Origin: a virus
DNA: 24,622 nt
IMG/VR virus record: IMGVR_UViG_3300008117_000964
Coordinates: 1 to 24,622 of that record
Strand: one strand, 5' to 3'
Made by a program: the position numbers and the translations under genes. Shown here in pieces: positions 3,323 to 20,976 of the stretch (positions are counted from its first letter, which is position 1; each line of letters starts with the position of its first letter). The notes beneath the pieces are model-generated. The model worked only from the letters and a program-made list of their open reading frames with translations. It did not search any database and was not told the origin of the DNA.

Positions 3323-3526
3323 ATGAAAAAGAACGTTCTATTTGTAAGTTTGCTCGCGGCCTCTTTGATGTTGGCTTCTTGTGGTTCTACTGAAGAAGTA
3401 AAAACTGAAGAAGTTGCAACTGAAGCTCCTGCAGCTGAAGTAACAACTGTAACTGAAGCTCCCGCAGCTGAAGCCACTGTTGTTGATTCTACCGCAGCCG
3501 CTCCTGTAGCAGAACCCGCTAAGTAA
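3323..3526 (+). CDS. Small Ala/Glu/Thr-rich lipoprotein
   Basis: This 67-residue protein starts with a lipoprotein signal peptide, MKKNVLFVSLLAASLMLASC, with the lipobox LASC and lipidated Cys at residue 20. The mature part is a 47-residue low-complexity acidic tail with a repeated TEAPAAE unit, so it is probably an unstructured chain anchored to a membrane. It sits between its own promoter and a strong terminator, the layout of a phage moron gene. Its codons are noticeably more GC-rich than the flanks, which hints at separate acquisition. The function is unknown; superinfection exclusion or surface masking would be speculation. Confidence 0.7.
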   Translation: MKKNVLFVSLLAASLMLASCGSTEEVKTEEVATEAPAAEVTTVTEAPAAEATVVDSTAAAPVAEPAK

Positions 3527-6705: not shown

Positions 6706-7794
6706 TTATTTTATCTGAATAAACCTCTTTTCAAAAGAATCGTCATATCTCATATCAAAAGGGTTAAACCAAGTCAAAGACTTTTTACCTTTTTTACCTA
6801 TTTGATAATTGTAACCTAATGAGAATCTATTGTATGTGTCGTTATCAGAGAAAATTTGTTTGTAACCATCCAAATCATCACCCATATAATAGTTAAAACA
6901 AAATTCTAAATTAACCGAACTTCTTTCTGTTATTTTATATTTCGCCCCAACACCAAAAGGTAGGATTAAATCTGTTTTCTTTTCCCCAGATACAACTACA
7001 CCATTTTTTTCTGTATCAGTTTTAAAATTAATTAAACCAACACCTGTATAAAAATAAAATATTGTGTTTTTATAGTTATTCAAAAATTGAACATTACCAA
7101 TTTGAACTTGAGGTAAAACTGAAATCTGATAATTTACTTTTGTATTATAATTAAGTTTTCCATCATCACCTTTGAACGAAGATTTGTAAAGATCTAAATT
7201 AACAGATCCAAAAGGTGAGAGTTGTTTGTTTACTCTTAAACCAAAATTAAGTTTAGATGAAACAGAAGTTTCAAAGACATCATTACTAATTCTGTCAAAT
7301 GTGCCGTAGTAATAATTGATGTTAGCCTGAACAGACCAAGTGTTAAAATCTTTTGTCTTGAATTTCTTTTGTCTGTTTATATTGTAATAATAGATTGTAT
7401 CACTATTTGGTGATATACCATAGACTAATGACTTTTGTTGTGTAAGTTCTTTTACTGAAGTTTCAATCTTATTTAATTGTGTCGTTGATTTTTCAACTTC
7501 AACCTGAAGATTAGTATTTTCAAATAAAAGAGAATCATTGATCTTATTAAGTTCAGTTACCTTAACACCACAAGCTTTATTTAAACTATCAATGTATAGT
7601 TTAAATTTTGAAAATTTACGATTGATGTCTTGAGCTTGTGAAAGCTTCATTACAACAACAGTATCTTTTTTAATTATTTTAGTAATCGGATACTTCGGTT
7701 GGGACAACGAAACTAAAGGCAGTGCCATTATCATTGTCATCGTTATTAACCATTTTCTTGGGTTGAGGGTTTTCATTTTTCTCATTAATTGCAA
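6706..7794 (-). CDS. Outer-membrane beta-barrel with periplasmic coiled coil (candidate outer partner of a spanin-like pair)
   Basis: The frame allows starts at 7794 (362 residues) or 7776 (MKTLNPRKWL). The second gives a better signal peptide ending near LVSLSQ. A roughly 90-residue helical, heptad-rich region follows (ELNKINDSLLFENTNLQVEV, TTQLNKIETSVKEL). The rest is alternating aromatic strands typical of an 8-stranded OmpA-like barrel (WSVQANINYYYG, FGLRVNKQL, FNYYMGDD, FSLGYNYQIG), ending in the Bacteroidota-style extension LTWFNPFDMRYDD. Its start lies inside the upstream coiled-coil gene in another frame, overlapping by about 98-116 bases. Signal, coiled coil and barrel are visible. 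A role in outer-membrane disruption is inferred from gene order; a plain OmpA-like porin is the alternative. Confidence 0.65.
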   Translation of the reverse strand: MQLMRKMKTLNPRKWLITMTMIMALPLVSLSQPKYPITKIIKKDTVVVMKLSQAQDINRKFSKFKLYIDSLNKACGVKVTELNKINDSLLFENTNLQVEVEKSTTQLNKIETSVKELTQQKSLVYGISPNSDTIYYYNINRQKKFKTKDFNTWSVQANINYYYGTFDRISNDVFETSVSSKLNFGLRVNKQLSPFGSVNLDLYKSSFKGDDGKLNYNTKVNYQISVLPQVQIGNVQFLNNYKNTIFYFYTGVGLINFKTDTEKNGVVVSGEKKTDLILPFGVGAKYKITERSSVNLEFCFNYYMGDDLDGYKQIFSDNDTYNRFSLGYNYQIGKKGKKSLTWFNPFDMRYDDSFEKRFIQIK

Positions 7795-7990
7795 CTTTTA
7801 AATTATTATTTTCTTGTTTTAAACCTGCGTTTTCAGTCCTAAGTGATCTATTTTCACCTTCAAGTTTTTGGTTCTCTTCTGTTAAAGAAATATTATCCTC
7901 AACAACTTCTACATGCTTATCGCCAGCAAAAAATATGTTAAGGACAATTAAAAGGACACCAACAAATAAAACTATTTTAATCTTCTTCAT
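7679..7990 (-). CDS. i-spanin-like inner-membrane coiled-coil protein
   Basis: I choose the ATG at 7990, inside the last codons of the upstream gene (14-base overlap). It gives a 103-residue protein starting MKKIKIVLFVGVLLIVLNIF, a short cytoplasmic end plus one membrane helix. An uninterrupted coiled coil follows with repeated EN heptads (LTEENQKLEGENRSLRTENA). The tail is acidic and Asn-rich. A single N-terminal membrane anchor plus periplasmic coiled coil is the layout of the inner-membrane spanin Rz. The next gene begins inside this one in another frame, as Rz1 does inside Rz. A start at 8035 would add a less plausible N-terminus. Family identity is inferred from architecture, not homology. 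Confidence 0.6.
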   Translation of the reverse strand: MKKIKIVLFVGVLLIVLNIFFAGDKHVEVVEDNISLTEENQKLEGENRSLRTENAGLKQENNNLKVAINEKNENPQPKKMVNNDDNDNGTAFSFVVPTEVSDY

Positions 7991-8291
7991 TTTTTCTCTT
8001 AGTTTTTGAAGTTCTCGACCCACCCAAAATAACATCCTTCAAATCTCTAAGAGCATTTGTATTGTTATTTATAACTTCTTTGAGTTTTTCTGAGTCTTCG
8101 TTTATATATTCACTCAATTCTTTTTGAAGTTCATCTACTTTGTCCCTTAACATATCTTCAGATGCGATTTGTCTTTTAAGTAAAAACCACAAAACAGCAC
8201 CAAGACCTAAAGTAATAACACCTAAAGCACCATATTGGGTTAAGGTTTCAAATATTCCCATACTTGGGACAACTGATTGTAGTATCATCAT
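7977..8291 (-). CDS. Holin-like single-pass membrane protein, paralogue of the upstream gene
   Basis: This 104-residue protein has one membrane helix (ALGVITLGLGAVLWFLL) preceded by GIFETLTQYG and followed by KRQIASEDMLRDK and a long charged amphipathic helix. The order, a QYG or QG element, one hydrophobic helix, then a Lys/Glu-rich cytoplasmic helix, resembles BhlA/UviB-type phage holins. The upstream gene shares the FGIFEQLTQYGALG-type core, so the pair arose by tandem duplication. It starts in a 4-base overlap with that gene (8288-8291) and runs into the coiled-coil gene. A holin or holin regulator is the best reading. Confidence 0.6.
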   Translation of the reverse strand: MMILQSVVPSMGIFETLTQYGALGVITLGLGAVLWFLLKRQIASEDMLRDKVDELQKELSEYINEDSEKLKEVINNNTNALRDLKDVILGGSRTSKTKRKNEED

Positions 8292-8536
8292 TTTCTTTTT
8301 CTTGATTTTCTTTGCTCTTCTTCCATTTCTGTGAGCTTTTTATTTAATTTATCTTGGTTGTCAATTTGCCTTTTAAGTAAATACCAACCAGCGGCACCCA
8401 ACCCTAATACAATAATGCCCAAAGCACCATATTGGGTTAATTGTTCGAATATTCCAAAACTTGGAACAACTTGTTGTGCCGCTTCAGCCACCTCTGCAAC
8501 CGTATCAGCAACTGCGATGTCTTGTAGTAATATCAT
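8288..8536 (-). CDS. Holin-like single-pass membrane protein, first gene of the lysis-type operon
   Basis: This 82-residue protein has an N-terminal acidic/Ala segment (residues 5-24), the core FGIFEQLTQYGALG, a membrane helix (IIVLGLGAAGWYLL), then KRQIDNQDKL and a very basic end (RKSRKRK). The N-terminus is predicted outside and the basic tail inside. It shares its core with the next gene, suggesting a holin/antiholin-like pair. An AAGGAAAC ribosome-binding site precedes the ATG, and a TATAAATA box lies 25 bases further upstream. It leads an operon of four overlapping genes down to 6706. Confidence 0.6.
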   Translation of the reverse strand: MILLQDIAVADTVAEVAEAAQQVVPSFGIFEQLTQYGALGIIVLGLGAAGWYLLKRQIDNQDKLNKKLTEMEEEQRKSRKRK

Positions 8537-9842: not shown

Positions 9843-10232
9843 ATGAAAAAATACTTCTTAATCCTTCTGACTCTTTTTACTCTGTCATTTTCATCTTGTA
9901 TTGTTGTAGATGATGATCCATATTCCGTTTATTCTTATCCTTGTGTTGATTATATAGACTATGTAGGTCATAATCAAGTTGGAGGAACGGTTTACATTTA
10001 TTTTGACAATTATTGTTCTGAAACCAAATCATTTACTCTTTGGATTGAAGATCCCTTTGGTTCATATTATATGTATGGTCGTAATTGGAGACGAGCTTCA
10101 ACCGATTATTATTCAGACCCCATTAGACTTTCCAGATACTCCTACGGTGTCGTGCCAAATAGAAGTTATTTGTGTATTATAACTTCATCCGATGGATATG
10201 TTTCTCAAGAGTTTGTAGTATATGTTTACTAA
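9843..10232 (+). CDS. Tyr-rich lipoprotein of unknown function
   Basis: This 129-residue protein has a lipoprotein signal peptide (MKKYFLILLTLFTLSFSSC) with Cys at residue 19 and an acidic VVDDD just after it. Acidic residues right after the Cys are linked with surface export of lipoproteins in Bacteroidota. The mature domain is rich in Tyr and beta-strand (GGTVYIYFDNY, SFTLWIEDPFG, QEFVVYVY), probably a small beta-sandwich. It has its own -7 box. The PorG-like barrel follows 61 bases downstream. The function is unknown. Confidence 0.65.
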   Translation: MKKYFLILLTLFTLSFSSCIVVDDDPYSVYSYPCVDYIDYVGHNQVGGTVYIYFDNYCSETKSFTLWIEDPFGSYYMYGRNWRRASTDYYSDPIRLSRYSYGVVPNRSYLCIITSSDGYVSQEFVVYVY

Positions 10233-10293
10233 AATTTAACATTTCCTTAGTAAACGAATCATTTTACCTATAGATTCGAGATATTTATGGAAA

Positions 10294-11199
10294 ATGGTTC
10301 GTTTATTATTTACATTTTTAATTCTTTTGATAAGTGCCGAATCGATATATGGTCAATACTATTCGAGGAGATGGAAAAAGGAGAGGTTGGAGTATCATAT
10401 AGGGTTGGGTGGATCTAACTTTTTAGGCGATTTAGGAGGGAAAGATGCGATAGGAACCAACGATTTCCAAGACTTAGAAATGAGTCAAACAAGATTTTCC
10501 ATATCAACAGGACTTAGATATAGATGGAAACCAAGAGTTTATGTAAACACGATTTTTACCTATGGTAAGTTATCAGGAAGAGATAATCTTACACAAGAAT
10601 TTTTTCGAAGTTATAGAAATCTAAGTTTTAAGACTGATATCTACGAATTAACAGTAAATGGTGAATATGCACTAATAAGAGAAAGTTTGGGACACCGATA
10701 TCGATTAATGGGTGTTAGGGGTAGACGAGGATATGACTATTCATTTTATGTTTTTGCAGGAATAGGAGTTTTTCATTTTGACCCAAAGGCAAAATTAGAT
10801 GGAACTTGGTATAGACTTAAACCACTCTCAACTGAAGGACAAGGAATTGTAGAAGGAAGAAAGGAATACAAATTAACTCAATTATGTTTACCTGTTGGAT
10901 TCGGGATGAGATACGCTTTTAACAGAAAGTTAGGTATCGGATTTAGATACGGTATTAGAAAAACTTTTACAGATTATATTGATGATGTGAGCACATCTTA
11001 TGTTGATCCACAAGTTTTATTAGAAGAAAAAGGTCCAATATCAGTCGCTTTTGCCGATAGATCCAATCAGGAATTCCCATATATTACAAAACCTGGTGAA
11101 CAAAGAGGTGACCCAAGAGACAAAGATTCTTATATGTTTTTTGAATTTTCAATAAGTTACAAATTAGTAACAAAAGATTGGCGTATACCCCTTTTCTAA
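10294..11199 (+). CDS. PorG-like (DUF6089-type) outer-membrane barrel
   Basis: This 301-residue protein has a signal peptide (LLFTFLILLISAESIYGQ). The mature start, LEYHIGLGGSNFLGDLGG, and the later RNLSFKTDIYELTVNGEY and YVFAGIGVFHFDP segments match the family of the T9SS component PorG, an outer-membrane barrel. Alternating aromatic strands continue to the C-terminus (FFEFSISYKL). Family members have about 230-300 residues, so it looks full length. In hosts, PorG is linked with T9SS assembly. Its place next to a T9SS-type cargo gene suggests either a modifier of that pathway or a surface protein. Whether it is PorG itself or another DUF6089 protein cannot be settled here. Confidence 0.65.
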   Translation: MVRLLFTFLILLISAESIYGQYYSRRWKKERLEYHIGLGGSNFLGDLGGKDAIGTNDFQDLEMSQTRFSISTGLRYRWKPRVYVNTIFTYGKLSGRDNLTQEFFRSYRNLSFKTDIYELTVNGEYALIRESLGHRYRLMGVRGRRGYDYSFYVFAGIGVFHFDPKAKLDGTWYRLKPLSTEGQGIVEGRKEYKLTQLCLPVGFGMRYAFNRKLGIGFRYGIRKTFTDYIDDVSTSYVDPQVLLEEKGPISVAFADRSNQEFPYITKPGEQRGDPRDKDSYMFFEFSISYKLVTKDWRIPLF

Positions 11200-11224
11200 A
11201 GTAATTTTCTTTGTATTATTTATG

Positions 11225-11247
11225 TTGTATTTATTTAATAAATACAA
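11225..11247. repeat. 11-bp perfect inverted repeat upstream of the large secreted-protein gene
   Basis: TTGTATTTATT and AATAAATACAA are exact inverted copies around one T. They lie 37 bases before the ATG at 11284 and could be an operator or a weak leader hairpin. It is AT-rich and not followed by a T run. Confidence 0.5.
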
Positions 11248-11283
11248 AATAAAATTTTTATAAATTTTTTAAAATTATACAAA

Positions 11284-14200
11284 ATGAAATTAGTTAAATA
11301 CACATTTTTATCGTTTTTATATCTTTTTTTGTCTTTTGGATTTACCAAAGCACAAGTGCCGTATAATGAATCATTTGAAGGGTCAACGATTTATCCTACC
11401 AATTCTCTACCATTGGGTTGGACAACAGGTAAATATGGGGTAAGTATCGATCCTGATAACTATTGGGATATGTCAGGTATTGGTTCGGTAAATCCTACCA
11501 CAAACCCAAGAACAGGTAATGGAATGGCCAGATATAGATCATTTTCAATACCATTAGGTGAAAAGGCGTATCTAACCACAAAACGGCTAGATATGACATC
11601 AATGCCCGTAACAGGGGCTGTTGGTAGTTTTTGGATGTTCCGAGATAATGGGTATACAACATCATTAGATAGTGTCAATGTATATGCAAATACTGTTAAT
11701 AATATGTCAGGAACTCCTGTTCGTATAAACGCAACTGCAAACATACCAAGGTATTGTGGAGCGGCACCAACGACAACTTGTGGAACTTGGTATCAGGTTA
11801 CTTTTACAATACCAGGTGCGGCTCCATTCTTGGGATCAAATAATGTGTTTATAAGTATTGTTGGGGCGAGTGCTTTTGGTAATAATATCTATGTTGATGA
11901 TTTTACAATTAACACATATCCAAATGTTAATCAATCCTATGTGTCCTCAGCACTTATATTTCAAAATACCGCACCTACAGCTCCGAATCAAGTAAATCAG
12001 GATGTTGTTGGTTTAAGAATTAGTGTTGTTGGATCAGGAACCGCTATTGGTCTTAGAGATTTAATTTTTAACACCAACGGGTGTAGCAATCCTGTCACAG
12101 ATATTACGGCAGCTAAACTTTGGTTTACTGGCGGAACAAACTTCTTTGATCAAAATACCGCAATATTACTTGGAAATGTTGCAAATCCTTGGTCCACAAA
12201 TTATACATTTTTAACAACTTCTTTCACAGGATTAGATAATGGTGATAACTATTTTTGGGTTACATATGATATAAATTTAAGTGCAGGTATTGGAAATTTT
12301 GTTGATGCTGATGTGGTTGGATTCAATACCATTGTAGGATCAACACCTACGGCAAGAACACCAATTCCTCAAACTTTGACGGGGGGAAGACCCATAGATT
12401 TGGTTTATTGTCAACCTATATATTCAAGTGGAACCTCTTGGCAAAACTACACAAACAATGACTATATTCATAGGGTAATATGTGTTGGTGATGTTGCTCC
12501 GGGTATAAATAATCAATACAACACAAATGGTCCTTCGTCCTGTTCACCATCACCCGCACAATGTCCATTTTCTGCACATCCCCCTGACTATGAATTTTTT
12601 CCTCCATCGAATACTAAAACTGCAGTTTTTACTGCTGGAAATACATATTCAATTACTTTACAAGTAGGAACTTATAATTCTTCAAATTACATCGCAGCTT
12701 GGGTAGACTACAATAAAGACGGAGTTTTCCAATCAACCGAAAGAATCGCCCAATCGGGATCGTTGGGGACTTTGGGAACATATACAATATCATTTACTGT
12801 TCCTTTAACATCTGCGGCCGGTAATACTAGATTACGAGTTAGAGAAGTTTTTGCCCAATCTAATATAGATCCCTGTGCTCCTGCAGGATTTGGTGAGACG
12901 GAAGACTATGTTGTAACAATTATTCCTCCTTGTGCTCCCGCTTGGCCTGGTTGGAAAACTTGGCTTGGATTTACAAATGATTGGAATAATCCGGCAAATT
13001 GGTGTGGAGGAGTTCCAACAATTAGTGATGACGCAAGAATACCAGGTTTTGGTGGACCAAATGGAAGATCAGGTAATTTTTCTCCTGTTATTAAAGCTGG
13101 TGTTTTGGCTACCACGAGAAATCTAAGAATTGAAAGTAATGACACAATTACGGTAAACGCACCAAATAATAGTTCACTTACAGTTAATGGGACTTTAACC
13201 ATTTTGGACAATACATCGGCATTAATAGTTAATAGCACATTTTCAGATACCGCACAATTAAATAACGGAACATTAATACCACCTACCGTTCCCATACAAA
13301 ATGCACCTTTCAAAAATAGTGCAAAAGTTAGAAATATTTGGTTATACACTCAGACTGAGTTACTCGCGGAAGGCATGTCGACGGGTGATGTAATTAATGG
13401 GTTATTGATGCACATCAAAAGAAATTATACCAACACTGGAGCAATATTTAAAAATCTAACTATCAAGATGTATTATACAACCGGTGGATTTAATAGTTTT
13501 AGATTTAATGGGGCAAACCCATCAATGCCACCAATTGTGGGTCCGGCGCCTGTAGTTGTTTACGGACCAATGGATTACAATATTGCAACTTATATCCCTA
13601 CTGCTAATACATCAGGAACAATTCCTTTTACACTATCAACACCATTTACTTGGGATGGAAGCGTCAATAAACTAGTTATTGATATGAGCTGGGACAATTA
13701 TGGTTTGACAACAATTAATACAAGTGATTATCCAACATTTACTCAACAAACAGGCTTACAACATTTCATTAGTATAATCAATACAAGAAATAATTTATCA
13801 TATCCCGCAGGAACTATGACCCCACCAAGAAATGTTGTATCAACTGGGGTTATTACAAATACAACAGGAACCAATATTTTAAATGTCACCATACCTACAG
13901 TAGATAATCTTGTTCCAGGTATGTGGGTCAGTGGGATCGGCGTATCAGTATCAACAACAGGAACTTGGGTTATAGGTGGAAATACTATTACGGTTACAAA
14001 TGCTGCGAATATTCAAATTGGACATTATGTCTTGGCAGGATCCTCACCAGGATATCAAGTAACAAACATATCAGGAACAACTATTACTGTATCAGGAACT
14101 TTTACATCACCTGGTACGAACACTTCAGTTATATTTCACCCCGAGATTACGGGTGTTTCGGGAACATCTGTTACATTATCACATAATACATACGCCGCCA

Positions 14201-14490
14201 TTTCAGGTAGTTATGGTTTTGGAACAAACAATTCATTCCCAAGTACTGGAACTGATTATAGACCGAATATCACCTTCCAATTTAGTAGACCTTATACAAA
14301 ATTTAATATAAATGTTAAAACAGATTGGATAAATAATGGAACCTTTACATCAGGTATTAGTAATGTAAATATGAATGGTTCTTTAACACAAATATTGGGA
14401 GGATTATTTACCACATCGTTTTATGATCTAACAATCAATAATACAAATCATATAACTCTTCAGTCAGACGCAATTGTTACTGAAACTTAG
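11284..14490 (+). CDS. Giant secreted T9SS-type adhesin, N-terminal part before a frameshift
   Basis: This 1068-residue open frame has a signal peptide (YLFLSFGFTKAQ). The mature start VPYNESFEGS and a beta-rich module resemble the cleaved-adhesin/MAM-like start of Bacteroidota surface proteins. Residues about 221-370 match the Ig-like module found beside sialidase repeats (DNYFWVTYDINLSAG). Residues about 455-545 are a GEVED domain (AAWVDYNKDGVFQSTER, then GFGETEDYVV). Long Thr/Asn-rich beta repeats follow. It ends at TAG 14488-14490 in mid-domain, and the next frame continues the same protein without its own start. Together they would encode about 1,430 residues, ending in a sorting domain. 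The intact product would be exported by Sec, then by T9SS to the surface. Confidence 0.7.
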   Translation: MKLVKYTFLSFLYLFLSFGFTKAQVPYNESFEGSTIYPTNSLPLGWTTGKYGVSIDPDNYWDMSGIGSVNPTTNPRTGNGMARYRSFSIPLGEKAYLTTKRLDMTSMPVTGAVGSFWMFRDNGYTTSLDSVNVYANTVNNMSGTPVRINATANIPRYCGAAPTTTCGTWYQVTFTIPGAAPFLGSNNVFISIVGASAFGNNIYVDDFTINTYPNVNQSYVSSALIFQNTAPTAPNQVNQDVVGLRISVVGSGTAIGLRDLIFNTNGCSNPVTDITAAKLWFTGGTNFFDQNTAILLGNVANPWSTNYTFLTTSFTGLDNGDNYFWVTYDINLSAGIGNFVDADVVGFNTIVGSTPTARTPIPQTLTGGRPIDLVYCQPIYSSGTSWQNYTNNDYIHRVICVGDVAPGINNQYNTNGPSSCSPSPAQCPFSAHPPDYEFFPPSNTKTAVFTAGNTYSITLQVGTYNSSNYIAAWVDYNKDGVFQSTERIAQSGSLGTLGTYTISFTVPLTSAAGNTRLRVREVFAQSNIDPCAPAGFGETEDYVVTIIPPCAPAWPGWKTWLGFTNDWNNPANWCGGVPTISDDARIPGFGGPNGRSGNFSPVIKAGVLATTRNLRIESNDTITVNAPNNSSLTVNGTLTILDNTSALIVNSTFSDTAQLNNGTLIPPTVPIQNAPFKNSAKVRNIWLYTQTELLAEGMSTGDVINGLLMHIKRNYTNTGAIFKNLTIKMYYTTGGFNSFRFNGANPSMPPIVGPAPVVVYGPMDYNIATYIPTANTSGTIPFTLSTPFTWDGSVNKLVIDMSWDNYGLTTINTSDYPTFTQQTGLQHFISIINTRNNLSYPAGTMTPPRNVVSTGVITNTTGTNILNVTIPTVDNLVPGMWVSGIGVSVSTTGTWVIGGNTITVTNAANIQIGHYVLAGSSPGYQVTNISGTTITVSGTFTSPGTNTSVIFHPEITGVSGTSVTLSHNTYAAISGSYGFGTNNSFPSTGTDYRPNITFQFSRPYTKFNINVKTDWINNGTFTSGISNVNMNGSLTQILGGLFTTSFYDLTINNTNHITLQSDAIVTET

Positions 14491-14537
14491 GCGCAATTAC
14501 AAGAACTAATGGATTCATTCAATCTGAGTCCACTATA

Positions 14538-15590
14538 TTGGGTAGTGATGTCGCTCCATTTGGTAGAATTAGATGGATTATGGGGTCTACAACAGGTCTT
14601 AGGGTTATTCCATTTATAAATCAAGCAGGAAACTCAATTTTCTTGGATTATAACATTGATAGTGGTAATCACGATGTAACATTTGCAACTTATGGAACTC
14701 CGGCAAATAATCAAAACATACCATTACCAACAGTAACAAATATAAATAACCCTACTTGGGGAGGAACAGGATTTGGTATTGCCGACAGATTTTATTACAT
14801 AGATAATTCAGGTAATACAGGACAAGCAGATGTTACAATGAGATATGCAAACTCTGAAAGAGCACAATCAGGAAATATTGATATGAGAGCTCAAAGATGG
14901 TTAAACACATCAAACTCTTGGGAATTACCGCTTTATTCAAATCAAACACACATTATTGGAACACCAGATGCTGTAACATTAAATGATTATACAGATTGGA
15001 CAAGTGGTTATTGGTGGACAGTTACAGGAATATTAAATCCATTACCTGTTGAACTTTTAGAATTCAAAGCAACAAAACATAATGACAAAGTTAGACTTGA
15101 TTGGACAACAGCGACTGAATCAAATTCAAGTCATTATTTAATTCACAGAACAACTGATATGGTTAACTACAATTATATTGATAGTTTAAAATCTCACGGA
15201 TTTTCAGTAACACAAACATCTTATAGAACTTGGGATTTAAATCCAACTAACGGAATGCAATATTATGTATTACATCAATATGATTTAAATGGTGTTCACA
15301 AAGTATATGGTCCCGTTTCTGTGGAGTTTAGTAATAGTAAATTTGAAATCACACAAGTTTCATACAATCAAAATCAACTTGAAATACTCTTTAATAATAC
15401 ATATGATGAATCAATTACAATAAATGTATTAGACTATTCGGGTAGAAAAATCTTAGAAGAAAGGGTTGAAAGACCATCAATTGGTGTTAATAAGGTTATG
15501 TTTAATAAATTTTTGAGTGAAGGAATTTATCACATTGTTTTAAACAACAGTAAAGAAAGTGTTAATTCTAAGTTATATTTTCAGAAATAG
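14538..15590 (+). CDS. C-terminal part of the frameshifted T9SS-type adhesin with sorting domain
   Basis: The frame is open from 14484 and reads smoothly on from the previous one (LGAITRTNGFIQ, SESTILGSD). No plausible ATG exists near its 5' end (14538 is TTG), so it is not an independent gene. Contents: a beta-rich Bacteroidota module (IRWIMGSTTGLRVIPF, ADVTMRYANSE), the fibronectin-like stretch PLPVELLEFKATKHNDKVRL, then a type IX sorting domain with LDYSGRKILEERV and the terminal GIYHIVLNNSKE...KLYFQK. This tail normally directs T9SS export and surface attachment. One base added near 14487 would fuse both frames. Programmed shifting is unlikely because no slippery heptamer is present. Confidence 0.7.
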   Translation: MGSDVAPFGRIRWIMGSTTGLRVIPFINQAGNSIFLDYNIDSGNHDVTFATYGTPANNQNIPLPTVTNINNPTWGGTGFGIADRFYYIDNSGNTGQADVTMRYANSERAQSGNIDMRAQRWLNTSNSWELPLYSNQTHIIGTPDAVTLNDYTDWTSGYWWTVTGILNPLPVELLEFKATKHNDKVRLDWTTATESNSSHYLIHRTTDMVNYNYIDSLKSHGFSVTQTSYRTWDLNPTNGMQYYVLHQYDLNGVHKVYGPVSVEFSNSKFEITQVSYNQNQLEILFNNTYDESITINVLDYSGRKILEERVERPSIGVNKVMFNKFLSEGIYHIVLNNSKESVNSKLYFQK

Positions 15591-17942: not shown

Positions 17943-18539
17943 TTAGGATAAAAGTGTAAAGAAACTTTTGAATTCTTTGATCCTTTCGGCAAGTCCGTTT
18001 GTTCCTCCGTTTACTCTTTTTGTTACAGAAGTTACAACAGCATCCGTTGCACCACCATCTGCAATCTTATGTAGTCCATTTTTATGGAAAAACCAAGCTG
18101 CTGATACCAAAGAATACTTAGAAGATACCAAATCAGGATTTGCAACACAATCTTCATTAATCGCTTTGGAAAATGCTTTATAATTGTCCTTACCGGTCAA
18201 TTGTATTGCTCCTCTTCCACGATATTTGTATCCATCACCTGATGCCTCATCACCATTTCCCATTCTATTTGCATAAACTCTGTTTGCAATCTTCTGAGGT
18301 TGACGAGCATAAGACTCTTCTAAGTTTCCTGGAAAGTATTTTCCAAAAACACCTTGTAATCCTTGAGCTGAATAGTTTAGATTTTCTTGTAACACTTTAA
18401 AATGACCTGATTCGTGAGAACACTGAGCCAAAAAGTGAGAAAGTCTCAAAGGAGTGTTTAATTCAAATTTTGATATTACCGTTGGTAATTGTTCAATAAC
18501 TGAGTCTGGGATTTTTCCCTTTAATTTTGAAACATCCAT
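17943..18539 (-). CDS. Endolysin, GH19 (chitinase-like lysozyme) family
   Basis: This 198-residue protein is a stand-alone GH19 domain. QCSHESGHF supplies the first catalytic Glu (E43) and VLQENLNYSAQGL the second (E52). The signature KYRGRGAIQLTGKDNY follows at 105-120, and AAWFFHKNG and VTKRVNGGTNGLAER complete the fold. Phage enzymes of this family cut the glycan strands of peptidoglycan. No signal peptide or wall-binding domain is present, so it needs a holin to reach the wall. The upstream gene, 21 bases away on the same strand, is a two-helix membrane protein that could do this. Confidence 0.9.
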   Translation of the reverse strand: MDVSKLKGKIPDSVIEQLPTVISKFELNTPLRLSHFLAQCSHESGHFKVLQENLNYSAQGLQGVFGKYFPGNLEESYARQPQKIANRVYANRMGNGDEASGDGYKYRGRGAIQLTGKDNYKAFSKAINEDCVANPDLVSSKYSLVSAAWFFHKNGLHKIADGGATDAVVTSVTKRVNGGTNGLAERIKEFKSFFTLLS

Positions 18540-18560: not shown

Positions 18561-18851
18561 TTATTGTGATTCTTCTGTAGAATCAGATTCATCATTGTTC
18601 TTTTTGTTTTTACCTGTAAGATATTTGTCAACCGACGCAATACCAAAGGCACCCAATGTGATCCATAAAAATCCATCAAAAATGAATTCATTTATAAGAA
18701 GTGGTCTTCCCATATAACCTGTAACCAAGTCCACACCTAAACAAAGGACCATCATAATAAATGATCCAAACCCAACGATCGACTTTTCATTAATATCGTT
18801 GTCATCCATAAACATTCTTTTAAAGAATGAAGCTTTTGTTTTAGTTTTCAT
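18561..18851 (-). CDS. Holin-like two-helix membrane protein upstream of the endolysin
   Basis: This 96-residue protein has a basic N-terminus (KTKTKASFFKRMF), two hydrophobic segments (SIVGFGSFIMMVLCLGVDLV and FLWITLGAFGIASV) and a Lys/Asp/Ser-rich tail (KNKKNNDESDSTEES). Both ends are predicted in the cytoplasm, as in class II holins. It lies directly before the endolysin gene on the same strand, the classic holin-endolysin order. Similar two-helix proteins flank endolysins in other Bacteroidota phages. The holin role is inferred from topology and position. Confidence 0.65.
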   Translation of the reverse strand: MKTKTKASFFKRMFMDDNDINEKSIVGFGSFIMMVLCLGVDLVTGYMGRPLLINEFIFDGFLWITLGAFGIASVDKYLTGKNKKNNDESDSTEESQ

Positions 18852-18859
18852 ATTTTCTC

Positions 18860-18896
18860 TATTTTTCCAATAAATATTTTAAAAATTGGAAAAATA
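18860..18896. repeat. 12-bp perfect inverted repeat spanning the ART gene's stop codon
   Basis: TATTTTTCCAAT (18860-18871) and ATTGGAAAAATA (18885-18896) are exact inverted copies with a 13-base spacer. One arm lies in the last codons of the ART-like gene. In its RNA it forms a hairpin with no strong T run, so it may stabilise the 3' end or be a protein-binding site. Confidence 0.6.
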
Positions 18897-19352
18897 ATCA
18901 TCTTCAAAATCCCCAAAATCATCAGAATGGTCAGTTACATCATCAACATTTACTATTTTAACATTCTTACCTTGATTTAAAAGGGTAATTTCGTTCTCAT
19001 TTGGATATAAAATATTGTTTTCCATACTTTCTTGGACATCAACAAATCTACTTGGGACTTTTACAGTGAAAAGAAACACTTTATCACCAATACCAGTTGA
19101 AAATTCATAATTACTGAGTAAATCCTCTTTGGATTCTGAATAGTGGGATCCTAATGACTTTAAATCAATATCCCTGAACTCATCTGCTCTTATAATTCTA
19201 TATAATGTAAGTGTTTTTGGTAAATTGTTGTATTTTTCAATTAAACCGTCAACCCAATCCTCAGCATCTTGTTCTGAATAATCCATACTAATTGCTGAGT
19301 TTATTAATCTTTGACGATCTATCTCCTCTTTTAAAACACTTATAAGTCTCAT
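18879..19352 (-). CDS. ADP-ribosyltransferase-like protein with virion-type leader (Alt-like concept)
   Basis: This 157-residue protein begins with a leader, MRLISVLKEEIDRQRL. The rest has the R-S-E order of an ADP-ribosyltransferase: LTLYRIIRADEF (R52), SLGSHYSES (S69/S72 in place of the STS motif), a strand KVFLFTVKVP, then YPNENEITLL with ExE at E119 and E121, and VKIVNVDDV. Such enzymes move ADP-ribose from NAD+ to proteins or nucleic acid. T4 packages an ART, Alt, in its head by an N-terminal targeting sequence, which the leader here recalls. The last 15 residues are very acidic. The STS motif is imperfect, so activity is uncertain. A TATAAATA box is 25 bases upstream. Confidence 0.55.
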   Translation of the reverse strand: MRLISVLKEEIDRQRLINSAISMDYSEQDAEDWVDGLIEKYNNLPKTLTLYRIIRADEFRDIDLKSLGSHYSESKEDLLSNYEFSTGIGDKVFLFTVKVPSRFVDVQESMENNILYPNENEITLLNQGKNVKIVNVDDVTDHSDDFGDFEDDYFSNF

Positions 19353-20463: not shown

Positions 20464-20976
20464 TTATTTACCTTTTATTGTGCGAATACAAGATTTCAAA
20501 TATTCCTTAGCTCTATCAGATGGATCTCTATGACGAATAACTTTTTCTATATCTTTTACTAAGTCTTCTCCGTGCTCATTCTCTTTGTATAACTCAATGA
20601 TCTTATCCATAGCGTTTATACAACCCCCGTTGGTCTCGTCAAAATATTTTTTTTGTTTGAAACTTTCCAAATTTGTCAAAAGATCATATGCTAAATGTTC
20701 GCCTCTATCTGGAATATCATCATGCATTCTTAGGGTTCTTAAAAGATCTAATGTGTCAACAAAGGATTTGATCCCTCTTTTTCTTTTTTTAACACTCTTA
20801 GTATATGGTTCGAAAACATCTTCATCATCACCAACAATCTCACTAAGAGAGGCAACATTAGATTTCGTGCACCTTTCTTCCTTGTTTTCCATACCCATAG
20901 AACTGTCATCTTCATTTACAATCTTGGTGAAAACTCTTTTCAATTGTTCTTCGGTAACGACTAATTTCATTTGCAT
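20464..20976 (-). CDS. Leader-bearing acidic/basic protein of unknown function
   Basis: This 170-residue protein may start at Met 1 (20976) or Met 3 (20970). From the latter it reads MKLVVTEEQLKRVFTKIVNE, close in pattern to MKYIITKKQYGLLVEQ at 629. An acidic stretch (EIVGDDEDVFEPY), a basic cluster (KKRKRGIK, possible nucleic-acid contact) and a helical C-terminal domain follow (FVDTLDLLRTLRMHDD, DAMDKIIELYKENE-like, KDIEKVIRHRD). It has no signal peptide. The leader suggests packaging or processing with the virion. The rest is unrecognised. Confidence 0.6.
   Translation of the reverse strand: MQMKLVVTEEQLKRVFTKIVNEDDSSMGMENKEERCTKSNVASLSEIVGDDEDVFEPYTKSVKKRKRGIKSFVDTLDLLRTLRMHDDIPDRGEHLAYDLLTNLESFKQKKYFDETNGGCINAMDKIIELYKENEHGEDLVKDIEKVIRHRDPSDRAKEYLKSCIRTIKGK

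Follow-up and report, generated by a model that had tools for sequence, protein, structure and literature searches.

An overlapping coiled-coil and beta-barrel gene pair in a phage lysis module as a candidate spanin-like envelope bridge

Two genes that overlap out of frame were found in a lysis module within a 24,622-nucleotide stretch of DNA from a virus of Bacteroidota-type bacteria (IMG/VR record IMGVR_UViG_3300008117_000964; the whole stretch is called here the window). One encodes an inner-membrane coiled-coil protein, the other an exported protein composed of a conserved head, containing a coiled coil, and a predicted beta-barrel. In its anatomy the pair resembles an overlapped two-component spanin. 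For the putative outer anchor, a barrel, no described example was found, although such an option was named in 2018 (PMC6139136). We infer, at roughly even confidence, that the pair performs the envelope-bridging, spanin-like step of the phage lysis system. It is proposed that the coiled coils of both proteins would meet in the periplasm and that the barrel, inserted by BAM, would replace the lipid anchor of Rz1. After the endolysin clears the murein mesh, the complex would collapse and the membranes would be joined or torn, in line with the model for Rz/Rz1. The conserved interaction part would be the head of the second protein, with the tail as an exchangeable anchor. The periplasmic coiled coils, the presence of one end per membrane, and the holin and endolysin context fit a two-component bridge of this kind.

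Organization of the locus in the window

The two holin-like genes, the gene of the transmembrane (TM) coiled-coil protein, and the barrel gene follow each other in that order on the minus strand (Table 1). The preliminary description regarded the holin-like proteins as paralogues, and this is supported by 64% identity over their aligned part. Both consist of a single N-terminal TM helix and a charged helix, the architecture for which we presumptively liken them to the BhlA/UviB family; candidate A matches phrog_1625 weakly. In the TM coiled-coil protein, leucines at positions 36-43-50-57-64 and asparagines at 33-40-47 form heptads, which are kept in the relatives, in agreement with the membrane-anchored coiled-coil protein described at the outset. 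Its sequence identifies it as an inner-membrane protein of type II that carries a parallel leucine zipper. The Rz-like phrog_739 aligns with this first protein (E = 0.011 for the window and 0.0014 for the relative L028), exclusively in the TM and coiled-coil region. In L093, L105, L130, L136, and L141, the relative of the first protein reaches about 165 aa in total through an extended C-terminal domain, and an overlapping second gene is lacking.

Table 1. Features of the lysis locus and of the endolysin region in the window
Feature	Positions	Strand	Remarks
BhlA-like single-TM holin candidate A	8288..8536	-	weak phrog_1625 match, E = 0.0017
BhlA-like single-TM holin candidate B	7977..8291	-	paralogue of A
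Inner-membrane coiled-coil protein (i-spanin-like)	7679..7990	-	N-terminal TM helix, HVxVV motif, leucine zipper
Outer partner	6706..7785	-	signal peptide, hairpin motif, coiled coil, PorG/OMP_b-brl-type barrel
Overlap of both genes	7679..7785	-	inner protein tail and outer protein signal peptide in different frames
Coiled-coil segment of outer partner	7417..7644	-	residues 48-123
Barrel domain of outer partner	6802..7347	-	residues about 147-328
GH19-type endolysin	17943..18539	-	phrog_181; 82% identity to the copy of the 222-kb relative
2-TM holin-like protein	18561..18851	-	adjoins the endolysin; 52% identity to the endolysin-neighbour gene of Immuto

Three starts of the barrel gene are possible, TTG at 7794, ATG at 7785, and ATG at 7776, giving overlaps of 116, 107, and 98 bp, respectively, and the alignment of relatives favours one of the two ATG codons. 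The out-of-frame overlap of about 98-116 bases noticed earlier is thus retained with any of them. The hairpin motif of the outer partner reads YPITKIIKKDTVVVM..QAQDIN in the window. The window virus carries its endolysin gene and a 2-TM holin-like gene 10 kb from the overlapping pair; in this virus, as in the 222-kb relative, the endolysin is encoded outside the cluster that holds the pair.

Distribution of the pair and its lysis neighbourhood

The family of related pairs was opened by a scan with both holin paralogues and extended by scans with alignments of the partners. Its members belong to uncultivated viruses, several of which are represented by records of 159-222 kb (G002, G005, G006, and G007), and no annotation was found for any relative of the pair. 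The genes overlap in 53 of the 55 distinct complete pairs; the length of the overlap, always equal to 2 modulo 3, has a median of 86 bp, which lies within the 70-155 bp reported for overlapped spanins (PMC6139136). A chance overlap is excluded by this conservation, 53/55 pairs being in one relative frame. Part of the coding sequence of the first gene also encodes, in another frame, the signal peptide of the second protein, an arrangement shared with Rz/Rz1.

The gene order of the window was sought in other phages and is constant in the main clade of uncultivated viruses: holin, holin, TM coiled-coil protein, and overlapping exported protein. Among the 48 main-clade loci that are well flanked (at least 1.5 kb on both sides), both holin genes lie directly upstream of the TM coiled-coil gene in every case (48/48); part of the set was found via the holins, and the arrangement recurred in scans that started from the two other proteins. 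An endolysin-type gene is located within 4.5 kb in 41/48 of these loci, and a 2-TM holin-like gene neighbours the pair in 36/48. The lysis-type operon postulated from the window alone is part of a wider pattern, in which the pair is a conserved component of a lysis module.

Similar overlapping pairs were also noticed in cultivated or named phages, in both cases too distant to prove kinship: gp187/gp186 of Flavobacterium phage Immuto, with an overlap of 89 bp when the start is corrected, and a pair beside an endolysin-like gene in the crAss-like phage cr127_1. The latter was reached via a chance-level match (E = 4) of the barrel protein, which had no match beyond this level among 50,697 phage records. 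Two loci (L138, 5756-6536; L044, 4288-5074) contain, near the main pair, one more pair of overlapping coiled-coil genes, which belongs to another subfamily and whose second protein has a C-terminal hydrophobic segment.

Conserved head and variable tails of the second protein

The head of the second protein comprises a signal peptide of the signal peptidase I type, an invariant glutamine, a motif (Y-P ... D-[TS]-V-V-[IV]-[LM] ... Q-[AG]-x-x-I-N across the family), and a coiled coil. A glutamine at the cleavage site of the signal peptide corresponds to the Q-rule of Bacteroidetes (PMC5837995, PMC10653852). In the window, the invariant glutamine stands at the expected cleavage site, and the signal region of the second protein contains neither a cysteine nor a lipobox; export by signal peptidase I at a glutamine-rule site is predicted. 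In the AlphaFold model of the window protein the head alone is resolved, with two coiled-coil helices, parts of them at high confidence, and the first half of the head motif forms a hairpin. The model of the 180-aa class of second proteins consists of a hairpin, one long helix, and a small beta domain, for which no informative fold match was found in PDB or BFVD.

Behind the head, the tail varies. It is a small soluble beta domain in about 30 of the 55 distinct pairs, i.e., in most of them, and a C-terminal TM helix in about 11 (the lipoprotein class described below not counted). In about 11/55 pairs both proteins apparently have TM helices. Three pairs have a 280-aa form, L017 has almost no tail, and in two groups, the window virus and the L216/L222 clade, the tail is a barrel. 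An outer-membrane anchor is, judging from the soluble tails and the pairs with TM helices in both proteins, not general in the family. Apart from the barrels, no convincing Pfam or PHROG assignment was obtained for the scanned representatives of the second protein, and no match to known Rz/Rz1 families was found.

The barrel nature of the window tail is supported by its matches to PF13505 (E = 1.1e-5 over nearly the whole model; 26.1 bits for the protein alone and 28.8 bits with its neighbours in frame, the cut-off being 28.7) and to the type IX secretion protein PorG (NF052316; E = 7e-12, 45.5 bits, below the equivalog cut-off of 130). The amphipathicity of its beta strands is 3.9 s.d. above that of shuffled sequences. 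AlphaFold gave pLDDT below 50 for this domain, where the alignment held no relatives. The preliminary description spoke of an OmpA-like barrel; the barrel stands, and the OmpA match is weak and covers part of the domain; PorG/OMP_b-brl-like is the better name. The window barrel shares its sequence type with the PorG, DUF6089, and OMP_b-brl barrels of Bacteroidota; unlike PorG, it is fused behind a conserved phage coiled-coil head and scores far below the equivalog cut-off. It is known from one virus only, its sole close IMG/VR match being a 45-kb record that is evidently the same virus. A wide spread in host chromosomes, which had been considered at the outset, was not seen, since no match was found in 84,980 genomes at pattern (close-relative) sensitivity. 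A second, free-standing PorG/DUF6089-like barrel is encoded at 10294-11199 (+) of the window (PorG E = 2.4e-26, below the cut-off), among other host-like exported proteins (9843-15590). Such barrels are thus at hand in the window virus; the similarity between the fused and the free-standing barrel is weak (E = 1e-4).

The second barrel clade consists of six contigs (L216, L217, L222, L226, L227, and L231). Its barrel alone matches PF13505 with E = 0.005 and PorG with E = 4e-5, and upstream of its gene lies a first gene that differs in sequence type, with genes for a GH19 endolysin and a 4-TM holin downstream. The heads of the window protein and of this clade align (40% identity, E = 4e-12), whereas no alignment was found between their barrels, which makes it probable that a barrel was acquired at this position on two occasions. 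The independence of the two barrels rests on these non-alignable barrel sequences and on the different families of the first genes. In the head tree, which is weak and whose alignment columns do not suffice to position the window barrel, the second clade groups with members bearing a C-terminal TM helix and not with the window.

A different set of anchors is found in seven distinct pairs, in which the first protein is not a TM protein but a lipoprotein with a true lipobox (of the G-C or S-C type, once E-C, which is less certain). In all of them (7/7) a TM helix is present at the C-terminus of the second protein, so that there is still one outer and one inner end. As their sequences are related, the seven pairs do not represent seven events. 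The predicted topology of this clade is the mirror image of that in the window: an outer lipoprotein with an inner type I protein against an inner type II protein with an outer barrel. An automatic "lipoprotein" label on ten further first proteins, which have soluble partners, was discarded by hand because the cysteine lies within the TM helix, with LQ[IVL] or comparable hydrophobic residues after it; relatives carry I or L at the position of this cysteine.

Proposed spanin-like bridging and its alternatives

The overlapped spanins of the P2, T5, and Jersey types share with the window pair a type II inner coiled-coil protein, a neighbourhood of lysis genes, an out-of-frame start of the partner gene, and a signal peptide within the overlap. 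In contrast to them, the partner in the window is not a lipoprotein but a much longer protein (359 aa) with a signal peptidase I site and a barrel, and the pair matches spanin families only weakly, via the coiled coil. Lacking a lipobox, it is not filed in the classical two-component spanin family. The unimolecular spanins (T1 gp11 type) have the same presumed job and the same host group (PMC12596118); the window pair differs from them in being encoded by two genes and in having no lipobox, and the u-spanin-like genes of some related cassettes are separate from the pair. The opinion given in the preliminary description, that no spanin of such a form had been described, holds: no example of a barrel-anchored spanin was found, and the sole published mention that was found is a speculative sentence of Kongari et al. 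(2018; PMC6139136), in whose words "an OMP could act as an o-spanin". The same authors considered that a type I inner-membrane protein could be an i-spanin, and both options lay outside their criteria. About 13% of the phage genomes in their survey were without a recognisable spanin (PMC6139136). A survey from 2025 dropped o-spanin candidates without a lipobox and assigned exclusively unimolecular spanins to phages of Bacteroidetes (PMC12596118). The present family, which would have escaped the filters of both surveys (PMC6139136, PMC12596118), gives sequence-defined candidates for OMP o-spanins and type I i-spanins and allows a direct test of what kinds of anchors spanins can have.

There is a real chance, somewhat short of even, that Bacteroidota phages have their own, distinct and as yet unannotated two-component spanin superfamily, in which overlapping coiled-coil genes are placed on exchangeable anchors. 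That its anchor sets would be an inner TM helix with an outer barrel, or an outer lipoprotein with an inner C-terminal TM helix, is held with the same slightly lower than even confidence. If true, the superfamily would explain how some phages without recognisable lipoprotein spanins open the outer membrane. The reading of the window pair as a spanin of new form is strengthened by the conserved overlap, the type II inner partner, and the occurrence of barrels in two or more lineages that appear to be independent; it is weakened by the second proteins of most relatives, which have no visible outer-membrane anchor, and by the u-spanin-like gene in some loci.

These latter points, in turn, favour a serious rival, judged unlikely, in which the pair is a device for lysis timing or holin control (an antiholin or an RI-type periplasmic sensor) and another gene, e.g., a u-spanin, disrupts the outer membrane. 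The pair of the main clade always lies directly behind the holins, and in some relatives the first protein is retained with another tail and the second gene is absent, both of which agree with this role. Moreover, the u-spanin architecture, a lipoprotein with a C-terminal TM helix, is also encoded in 13/48 loci, so that these viruses have a further candidate beside the pair. However, neither the profile nor the lipobox scan revealed such a gene in four large records of the clade, i.e., the 45-kb record that includes the window (an incomplete virus), the 222-kb relative, and two further large relatives, and holin control leaves the two apparently independent barrel captures and the swap to lipoprotein and C-terminal TM anchors unexplained. 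A replacement of the pair by u-spanin genes was considered and rejected, since both occur together in the 13 loci.

The two remaining explanations are improbable. The first protein could be the i-spanin of a conventional small lipoprotein encoded elsewhere, with the barrel gene unrelated and merely overlapping. A candidate at 3323-3526 (+) matches the Rz1-like LysC model weakly (E = 0.0026; 18.1 bits, cut-off 27), and two other large relatives (L204, 18517-18696; L192, 6258-6440) also encode such low-complexity lipoproteins, which have about 60 aa and a high content of A, T, D, V, and E. This lipoprotein is a weaker rival than holin control; its gene, 3 kb distant on the opposite strand, encodes a low-complexity protein, and the conservation in 53/55 pairs of both the overlap and the second gene's head speaks against an elsewhere-encoded partner. 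A host-derived, PorG-like domain, tethered to the inner membrane via the coiled coils, could also act on the host envelope; this action, to which we give equally little credence, would mean blocking of a receptor or of the type IX secretion machinery, or superinfection exclusion. The similarity of the window barrel to PorG and the even more PorG-like free-standing barrel, amid host-like exported proteins, speak for it. The position of the barrel gene inside a holin operon, the soluble or TM tails that relatives hold at the same position, and the endolysin gene adjoining the barrel gene of the second clade speak against it.

Several further proteins were noticed in the surveyed records. In the related lysis cassettes, lipoproteins that end in a TM helix, the u-spanin architecture, form a family without annotation (L012, 5244-5726; L052, 2621-3049; L145, 2880-3362; L149, 2955-3368; L157, 5519-5941; and others, with two in L159). 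Beside the endolysin genes of L228 (1546-2157) and of phage phi14:2 (L009, 10515-11093) lie genes for proteins that begin with a TM helix, continue with a long periplasmic stretch, and finish in beta strands; the phi14:2 protein, which ends with ...WIGGSIKF, belongs to phrog_25644, of unknown function. They are possibly inverted single-protein bridges between the membranes. Many proteins of huge phages share similar short N-terminal stretches, e.g., MKYIKEYEEF in L005 (12212-17016), and possibly similar stretches, e.g., MNLVKEELNRIHSIMG, occur in the window at 629, 18879-19352, 20464-20976, 21260, and 22640, which suggests a targeting or processing tag.
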